In this document: positions 24,560 through 26,305 of the stretch, in pieces
How the letters are laid out: each line of letters begins with the position of its first letter
Numbering within the stretch: position 1 is the stretch's first letter
Assembly (NCBI RefSeq): GCF_000381125.1
Contig: NZ_KB905959.1
Span: 1 to 33,881, forward strand
Length of the DNA stretch: 33,881 bases
DNA from: Caldimonas manganoxidans ATCC BAA-369
Lineage (GTDB): Bacteria; Pseudomonadota; Gammaproteobacteria; Burkholderiales; Burkholderiaceae_C
Direction: 5' to 3'
The notes under the pieces: model-generated
Told to the model about the DNA's origin: nothing
What the model saw: only the letters and a program-made list of their open reading frames with translations
Databases searched by the model: none
Made by a program: the position numbers and the translations under genes

Positions 24560-24560
<1 letters not shown>
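23442..24560 (-). CDS. corA: CorA-family divalent cation transporter
   Basis: The protein has 372 residues: a large cytoplasmic N-terminal domain, a long stalk helix (LRMVNHIVDGYLELRRLL; RRERELLRLRSRDVLEHIER) and two C-terminal membrane helices with the pore signature GMN (329-331, in ITGIFGMNF). It would take up Mg2+ or related ions. In many CorA proteins the periplasmic loop reads MPE; here it is MPL, so the usual acidic residue is missing. The gene overlaps the hemB stop by one base (TGATG at 24560), so it is translationally coupled and probably co-transcribed with hemB. Confidence 0.9.
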
Positions 24561-25570
<1,010 letters not shown>

Positions 25571-25656
25571 CTAAGTAACAAGCGTTCGAAAGCGTGAAAA
25601 GCTGGTGTTTTCCATGCCCGAGTGGATTACTGGGGTCCTCCAGCCGGTCATCGATC

Positions 25657-25676
25657 TGTGATAAGCTCACATGTGA
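25657..25676 (+). promoter_or_regulatory. Extended -10 promoter overlapping a TGTGA-N5-TCACA palindrome
   Basis: TGTGATAAG (25657-25665) fits an extended -10 element (TGn plus GATAAG). The same bases form TGTGA (25657-25661), 5 nt and TCACA (25667-25671), and a second palindrome TCACATGTGA runs 25667-25676 across the expected start at about 25672. The half-sites resemble CRP/FNR-type boxes, but the 5-nt spacer is one short of the canonical six. No -35 box is clear. Confidence 0.45.
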
Positions 25677-25790
25677 ATGATACGTCGCAAGACGGTCATT
25701 CCCTGCTTTTCCTCCCTGAGCAGGTGCCTTACCGTGATGACAGCGATAAGGCTTTGAAGCCCCAGTCCCCGACTGGGGCTCTTTCTTTTT
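25672..25790 (+). ncRNA. Structured small RNA with an anti-Shine-Dalgarno loop
   Basis: About 119 nt with no open reading frame of note. Hairpin 1 (25675-25701) pairs GAATGA with TCATTC and CGTC with GACG around a GCAA tetraloop. Hairpin 2 (25702-25724) pairs CCTGC with GCAGG and exposes a 13-nt loop, TTTTCCTCCCTGA, whose CCTCC is complementary to the Shine-Dalgarno sequence. A third stem pairs GCCTTA (25726-25731) with TAAGGC (25747-25752). A strong terminator closes it. It lies between divergent hemB and hemJ. It could belong to the described 'Betaproteobacteria toxic small RNA' group or resemble the C-rich-loop (cuckoo) sRNAs, but I could not compare sequences. Confidence 0.7.
25758..25790 (+). 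terminator. Rho-independent terminator of the small RNA
   Basis: AGCCCCAGT (25758-25766), a 5-nt loop and ACTGGGGCT (25772-25780) form a perfect 9-bp stem, followed by CTTTCTTTTT. On the opposite strand no T-run follows the stem, so it works for plus-strand transcripts only. Confidence 0.88.
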
Positions 25791-25854
25791 GGGCGACGCT
25801 TTGCGCCCGCCCGCGCTGCGGTCGGTCATCGCACCGACGCCCGGCCGGGGTGGC

Positions 25855-25860
25855 TATCAT
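25855..25860 (+). promoter_or_regulatory. -10-like box (TATCAT) 7 nt before hemJ
   Basis: TATCAT matches 5 of 6 bases of TATAAT and ends 7 nt before the hemJ ATG, so transcription would begin at or next to the start codon. Upstream, GTCGGT (25821-25826) and ACCGAC (25833-25838) form a 6-bp inverted repeat. The ATG has no Shine-Dalgarno. Confidence 0.35.
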
Positions 25861-25867
25861 CCGGCGC

Positions 25868-26305
25868 ATGCTCTACGCCGTGGTCAAATCCCTGCACATC
25901 GTCTTTGTCGTCGGCTGGTTTGCCGGTCTGTTCTACCTGCCGCGCATCTTCGTGAACCTGGCGCAGGTCAGCCCCGACAGCCATGCCGAGCGCGAGCGCC
26001 TGCTGCTGATGGCGCGCAAGCTCTATCGCTTCATGTCGCTGCTGATGCTGCCGGCCCTGGGCTTGGGCCTGTGGCTATGGCTGGGCTTTGGCATCGGGCG
26101 CGGTCCCGGCAGCGGCTGGATGCATGCCAAGCTCGCGCTGGTGCTGGGCCTCATCGGCTACCACCACGGGTGCCGTCGCCTGCTGCGCGGCTTCGAGCAG
26201 TCCCCGAACTCGTCCCGATCCCATGTGTGGTACCGCTGGTTCAATGAGGTGCCGGTGATCGTGCTGCTGGCCGTCGTGCTGCTGGTGGTGCTCAAGCCCT
26301 TCTGA
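25868..26305 (+). CDS. hemJ: HemJ-type protoporphyrinogen IX oxidase
   Basis: HemJ oxidises protoporphyrinogen IX to protoporphyrin IX in the membrane, replacing HemG or HemY. The protein has 145 residues and four helices. Family-typical segments are VKSLHIVFVVGWFAGLFYLP at the N terminus (conserved His10 and Trp17), MHAKLALVLGLIGYHHGC near residue 80-100, and the C-terminal RWFNEVPVIVLLAVVLLVVL with LKPF, which is the best HemJ signature. Such proteins are often annotated only as 'CopD family'. Divergent hemB 306 nt away supports a heme role. It is followed by a VanZ-like gene with 5 nt between. Confidence 0.78.
   Translation: MLYAVVKSLHIVFVVGWFAGLFYLPRIFVNLAQVSPDSHAERERLLLMARKLYRFMSLLMLPALGLGLWLWLGFGIGRGPGSGWMHAKLALVLGLIGYHHGCRRLLRGFEQSPNSSRSHVWYRWFNEVPVIVLLAVVLLVVLKPF

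Follow-up and report, generated by a model that had tools for sequence, protein, structure and literature searches.

The window, by which we mean the whole analysed stretch of 33,881 nucleotides from Caldimonas manganoxidans ATCC BAA-369, carries a small RNA gene between hemB and hemJ, and its features are collected in Table 1. The plus strand of 25660-25800 folds with -58 kcal/mol compared to a shuffle mean of -39.0 (z = -4.89) and none of 200 shuffles was equally stable, which bears out the initial annotation of a structured plus-strand RNA with its own terminator, just as the Pfam matches bear out its placement between the two heme genes. Hairpin 1 indeed ends in a GNRA-type tetraloop (25687-25690), a feature shared by 22 of the 23 rows in the subtype alignment of the window's family. 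The proposed exposed anti-Shine-Dalgarno loop in hairpin 2 was also recovered, as the CCUCCC of the window's copy has a mean unpaired probability of 0.999 and is kept in relatives; its minimum-energy size is 9 nt (UUCCUCCCU), and the 13 nt given originally are reached only by leaving the closing U-A and U-G pairs out of the count. The C-rich stretch in the window's terminator loop is CCC only, and many members from other Burkholderiales (L034-L062) show a second C-rich stretch (CUCCCCUUU) at this place.

Table 1: Features of the small RNA locus and its flanking genes, in window coordinates.
Feature	Position	Strand	Basis
sRNA gene, three hairpins followed by an intrinsic terminator	25675-25790	+	folding
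Putative -10 region (TG and TAAGCT), probably sigma-70-like	25657..25667	+	alignment with relatives
Hairpin 1 with GNRA loop GCAA	25675-25701	+	folding and family alignment
Hairpin 2, loop carrying CCUCCC at 25711-25716	25702-25724	+	folding, unpaired probability
Hairpin 3	25726-25752	+	folding
Intrinsic terminator	stem 25758-25780, T-rich run up to 25790	+	folding
Rfam RF02837 (anti-hemB) match	25700-25787	+	60.8 bits, cut-off 49.5
hemB (porphobilinogen synthase), divergent neighbour	24560..25561	-	PF00490, E 8.5e-141
hemJ (UPF0093), downstream neighbour	25868..26305	+	PF03653, E 3.9e-41

As a kind the RNA is not unannotated, as had been assumed. It matches the complete covariance model RF02837 (positions 1-81 of 81, E 5.2e-12) above the curated cut-off, and RF02837 is the anti-hemB motif, also called Burkholderia RNA 7 and derived around 2007 by comparing Burkholderia genomes. 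Since this family is already catalogued, the window holds a fresh instance of it. One described member is ncS04 of B. cenocepacia J2315, for which anti-hemB is given as alternative name: it is 105 nt long with a 3' end set by RACE and RNA-seq, the figure legends count it among the RNAs shown by Northern blot, qPCR found no significant change across seven conditions, and the predicted targets of the study's candidates are placed in the supplement (PMC5688073). In B. pseudomallei Anti-hemB is listed among the homologues of known sRNAs (PMC3521395). In the accessible parts of these two accounts we found a confirmed transcript in one species, no proven target and no proven function. The window's RNA shares with RF02837 and ncS04 the three hairpins and the terminator, and with the family also the adjoining hemB, but its hairpin 1 is longer and has a GNRA loop, its hairpin 2 has a CCUGC/GCAGG stem and the gene downstream is hemJ instead of engB. 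Only the final two bases of hairpin 1 are taken in by the Rfam model.

The initial annotation had placed the RNA near the toxic small RNAs of betaproteobacteria (RF02278), which resemble it in their C/U-rich loops complementary to Shine-Dalgarno sites but have a two-hairpin architecture as published. We rejected this membership on the scores, as RF02278 stayed without a match in 25500-25900 even at E <= 1. The same permissive scan returned, besides RF02837, nothing but a weak match to mmgR/suhB (RF00519; 18.6 bits, E 0.18, cut-off 41), which was rejected as well: the model consensus contains a CCUCCCU stretch, but this and the stretch of the window are out of register in the alignment. Cuckoo/CcsR-type RNAs have repeated CCUCCUCCC loops; the window's RNA carries one CCUCCC loop.

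Searching with RF02837 at E <= 0.001 we found matches in 126 of 150 genomes of the window's family (117 above the cut-off), in 192 of 250 genomes of the order (164 above), in 124 of 274 genomes of the class (14 above, two of these belonging to the window's family) and in 31 of 200 genomes of the phylum (4 above). The weak end of this distribution is unreliable because 3 of 14 control genomes also gave weak matches and because the 15 non-gammaproteobacterial genomes with matches in the phylum search reached at most 31.2 bits. For the main comparisons we used three sets of loci, which are best-scoring matches and not random samples: 52 from the window's family, including the window's own copy and a weak second match of its genome, 70 from other Burkholderiales (order loci) and 38 from other Gammaproteobacteria (gamma loci), each of the latter scoring at least 40.3 bits.

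The structure is supported by the covariation suggested as a check in the initial annotation. The family alignment (A1) comprises all 23 CCTGCTT-type loci among the 52 and the order alignment (A3) 46 of the 70 loci, chosen by eye with near-duplicates and divergent loci left out, and both are biased towards structure; a further family alignment (A2, 33 of the 52 loci) did not enter the counts. Changes on both sides of a pair were found for 12 of 32 pairs in the former and for 21 of 30 pairs in the latter, a level of covariation reached by 0 of 500 shuffles of either alignment, and slid versions scored far lower. Hairpin 1 alone accounts for double changes in 5 of 9 family pairs and 7 of 7 order pairs, and judged from these alignments this hairpin outside the Rfam model is kept via compensatory change. 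Hairpin 2 is near-invariant inside each set (of its 7 pairs, none in the family and one in the order alignment has double changes), and between the subtypes its stem changes from CCCGC/GCGGG to CCUGC/GCAGG. CCTCCC lies within the first 40 bases in 52/52 family, 69/70 order and 34/38 gamma places, with a mean unpaired probability of 0.88, 0.82 and 0.90, respectively, compared to 0.41 for all positions in the family. The flanks of this core are kept as well, and so are the U and GAGC around it: 49 of the 52 family loci and 54 of the 70 from the order contain TT[CT]TCCTCCCTGAGC. Because the loop belongs to the search model its conservation is partly selected for; that of hairpin 1 and of the gene neighbourhood is not built into the model.

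Whether the heme-gene neighbourhood is conserved or accidental had been left open, and the answer differs with the phylogenetic depth. Within the family it is conserved, with hemB upstream in 41 and hemJ downstream in 39 of the 52 loci and the complete arrangement hemB(-), sRNA, hemJ(+) in 38. Eight of the 52 (L006, L007, L010, L011, L012, L016, L018 and L081) lie behind rlmL-like and PIN-domain genes, a second conserved place of the RNA in this family. The order and gamma loci differ: hemJ was seen downstream in none of them. In the order set hemB is still upstream in 53 of 70 loci, the usual arrangement being hemB(-), sRNA, engB(-) (48/70), and together with four further loci with engB downstream and 11 in which the RNA lies behind engB in the same direction, engB adjoins the RNA in 63 of 70. 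In the gamma stretches read, hemB was not seen beside the RNA; here polA(+), sRNA, engB(-) occurs in 16 of 38 loci and polA and/or engB in 32. The common neighbour of both sets is thus engB and not hemB. A cytochrome c4-like gene often follows beyond engB, in order and gamma loci alike. Among 80 named loci, out of at least 120, hemB and engB flank the RNA in Burkholderia, Pandoraea, Nitrosospira and most Paraburkholderia and hemB and hemJ in Variovorax, Polaromonas and Ramlibacter. Some copies are oriented differently or lie elsewhere, unlinked, and this together with the turnover of neighbours does not indicate a role in heme control. The heme-gene neighbourhood of the anti-hemB RNA is therefore probably incidental, and the family name, like the heme surroundings, could be misleading.

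A further difference between the groups was found in the predicted promoters. The sigma-E-like pattern used here was drawn from the general consensus and written after inspection of the loci. The 80 bases upstream contain it in 60 of 69 order places, where shuffles predict 1.5 and 4 of 341 control windows have it; one of the 70 was left out as it had too little upstream DNA. In the gamma set it occurs in 28 of 38 places (0.5 expected; 2 of 182 control windows). In the family it was found in only 3 of 52 places (0.6 expected; 0 of 260 control windows), one of them being the weak second match of the window's genome, and the pattern scan did not find it in the 80 bases ahead of the window's own Rfam match. 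Instead, 38 of the 52 family loci carry an extended -10 pattern, for which 2.9 are expected from letter shuffles, and the anti-hemB promoter of this family looks sigma-70-like. The window's genome encodes RseA, as do 20 of 25 family genomes, so the sigma-E system has not generally been lost. We also considered that sigma-E control might have shifted onto a paralog and rejected this: besides the second match of the window's genome none of 26 places of dispersed family copies (27 fetched, two incomplete; one of the 26 is a hemB-hemJ locus) has the pattern.

In a second set, made up of named loci, just 10 of 28 engB-linked copies have the strict pattern (1 of 133 control windows), which speaks against the model preferred below and slightly lowers the odds of the wider scenario. 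A looser pattern admitting GAAACTT boxes, written afterwards, raised this to 22 of 28 (2 of 133 control windows). The copies failing the strict pattern include those of Burkholderia, Paraburkholderia, Caballeronia and Pandoraea, and its failure in Burkholderia would fit the unresponsive ncS04.

Spot 42 (spf) and ErsA are both encoded at the polA-yihA(engB) place, and ErsA is a stress-controlled regulator of Pseudomonas under an AlgU/RpoE-type sigma factor. No match to Spot 42 was reported in the 16 loci scanned. At E <= 0.001 the window's genome is not hit by the ErsA model RF01719 (Pseudomon-1), and the window's RNA also differs from ErsA in lying between hemB and hemJ, not beside polA, and in its promoter type; the path from anti-hemB to the polA place of ErsA runs via engB in other genomes. 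Across 252 class genomes RF01719 matched in eight, one of them above its cut-off. RF02837 also picks out five of these places (G448, G457, G536, G548, G563) and does not pick out that in G482; the remaining two are in G427 and G554. The full-score ErsA (G554) lies beside polA, as the gamma members do, and has a GAACTT-type promoter, but it is without the CCUCCC hairpin, RF02837 misses it, and the 3.1 kb covered showed no engB. The published pairing of ErsA with amrZ involves another, U-rich region and is activating (PMC5819304). In the titles and opening lines of abstracts covered, from a collection with few subscription papers, we found no published link of anti-hemB to ErsA or sigma-E.

From neighbourhood, promoter and intermediates we infer that anti-hemB and the polA/engB-flanked gamma sRNAs are one family with ErsA as a diverged member. 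The wider scenario, which we regard as evenly balanced between right and wrong, is that betaproteobacterial anti-hemB and Pseudomonas ErsA descend from one ancient, engB-anchored sRNA gene with sigma-E control and an anti-Shine-Dalgarno loop, and that the window's family swapped sigma-E for a housekeeping promoter and engB for hemJ and spread dispersed copies. The ErsA tie would offer a testable function, the control of translation under envelope stress, and the promoter change would forecast in which groups the RNA answers envelope stress and in which it does not. If the unity holds, the window's family would exemplify the natural recruitment of an envelope-stress sRNA into constitutive use. 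The link to ErsA and sigma-E and the promoter change are the parts of interest that go beyond the known family membership.

As to the function of the RNA itself, its own terminator, the dispersed copies, the changes of orientation, the open and conserved loop and the discrete relative in Burkholderia favour a trans-acting sRNA. The model that we prefer, with reasonable though not high confidence, is a trans-acting anti-hemB sRNA of about 115 nt, probably Hfq-dependent, that masks Shine-Dalgarno sites. It would be the counterpart of ErsA in Betaproteobacteria, the older sigma-E control having been replaced in the window's family. Transcription would start from the sigma-70-like promoter near 25660 and end at the RNA's own terminator (about 25790), and the RNA would probably be bound by Hfq, which is encoded in the window's genome. 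The CCUCCC loop could then pair with the Shine-Dalgarno regions of several mRNAs and hinder ribosome entry. The gene would correspond to the polA/engB-flanked sRNA of other Gammaproteobacteria, Pseudomonas ErsA being a diverged form, and the older control would have been exerted by an RpoE/AlgU-type sigma factor that was replaced in the window's family. A precedent is known from Bordetella, where other sRNAs that are C/T-rich and depend on Hfq bind numerous mRNAs by pairing at Shine-Dalgarno-like motifs (PMC12235514). Two of these, CT_433 and CT_521 of Bordetella pertussis, are alike in their C/T-rich seed acting on such motifs and in their Hfq dependence, but they lie at other genome places.

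A search of 60 family genomes for the extended complement of the loop (TCAGGGAGGA-N(3,10)-ATG) gave 41 places, 11 of which are the sRNA gene itself read on its opposite strand, and the remaining 30 are barely above the 22 obtained with a permuted flank and the same core. Among 30 loci fetched, nine were self places and 21 readable, three of which precede a NodJ-type ABC permease (two named by NCBIfam). All ten bases are kept in 6 of 30 orthologous permease loci, with a doubtful start in several. By eye this stretch belongs to the 3' end of the gene upstream and its changes look synonymous, so that we ascribed the kept bases to coding constraint and rejected the candidate, not as proof against the permease as a target. 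The search of the 60 genomes thus yielded no credible target candidate.

The missing enrichment of extended targets, together with the almost fixed loop core that resembles a general anti-Shine-Dalgarno sequence, would also suit a general translation brake or decoy that has no defined set of targets and acts on ribosomes or on a large number of Shine-Dalgarno sites. We consider this unlikely, as the flanks of the loop and the U and GAGC around its core are conserved too and the partners of the C/T-rich Hfq sRNAs in a related organism are defined, though numerous (PMC12235514). The terminator lies upstream of hemJ and on its strand, both in the window and in the 39 family loci (of 52) with hemJ downstream, and this could be taken to mean a cis-acting leader or attenuator that ends transcription ahead of hemJ on a signal. 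This is very improbable in view of the absence of hemJ downstream in all 70 order and 38 gamma loci, the often convergent engB in these sets, the copies at unlinked places and the discrete RNA of the Burkholderia relative; moreover, a single stable structure is predicted. An antisense regulator acting on the hemB mRNA leader, as the family name implies, would explain why a divergent hemB precedes the RNA in 41 of the 52 family loci and in 53 of the 70 from the order, and leader overlap is possible. Yet in the window about 110 bases separate the start of the RNA from the hemB start codon, and no hemB was seen by the gamma, rlmL/PIN-type or dispersed copies, with the exception of one hemB-hemJ locus, which makes this the least probable of the readings.

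The window's family carries many dispersed RF02837 copies. One of its genomes (G087) has six matches (L358-L361, L005), two of them only about 100 bases apart, and another copy (L371), without a proper T-run, lies beside a gene that by eye resembles an IS110-type transposase gene. The 20-base loop pattern also occurs in the record of a Thermoplasmatota archaeon (L206, a metagenome bin) from which the usual flanking genes are absent, and we regard it as chance or contamination. The second match of the window's genome (contig C3:165406-165487, minus strand; L384:3001-3082) scores 33 bits, which is below the cut-off, and shows a sigma-E-like promoter and several CUCCC loops. Since its sequence differs we read it as probably another, sigma-E-driven C-rich sRNA, and its GTTGTCTCCTC stretch is common to L378 and L379.
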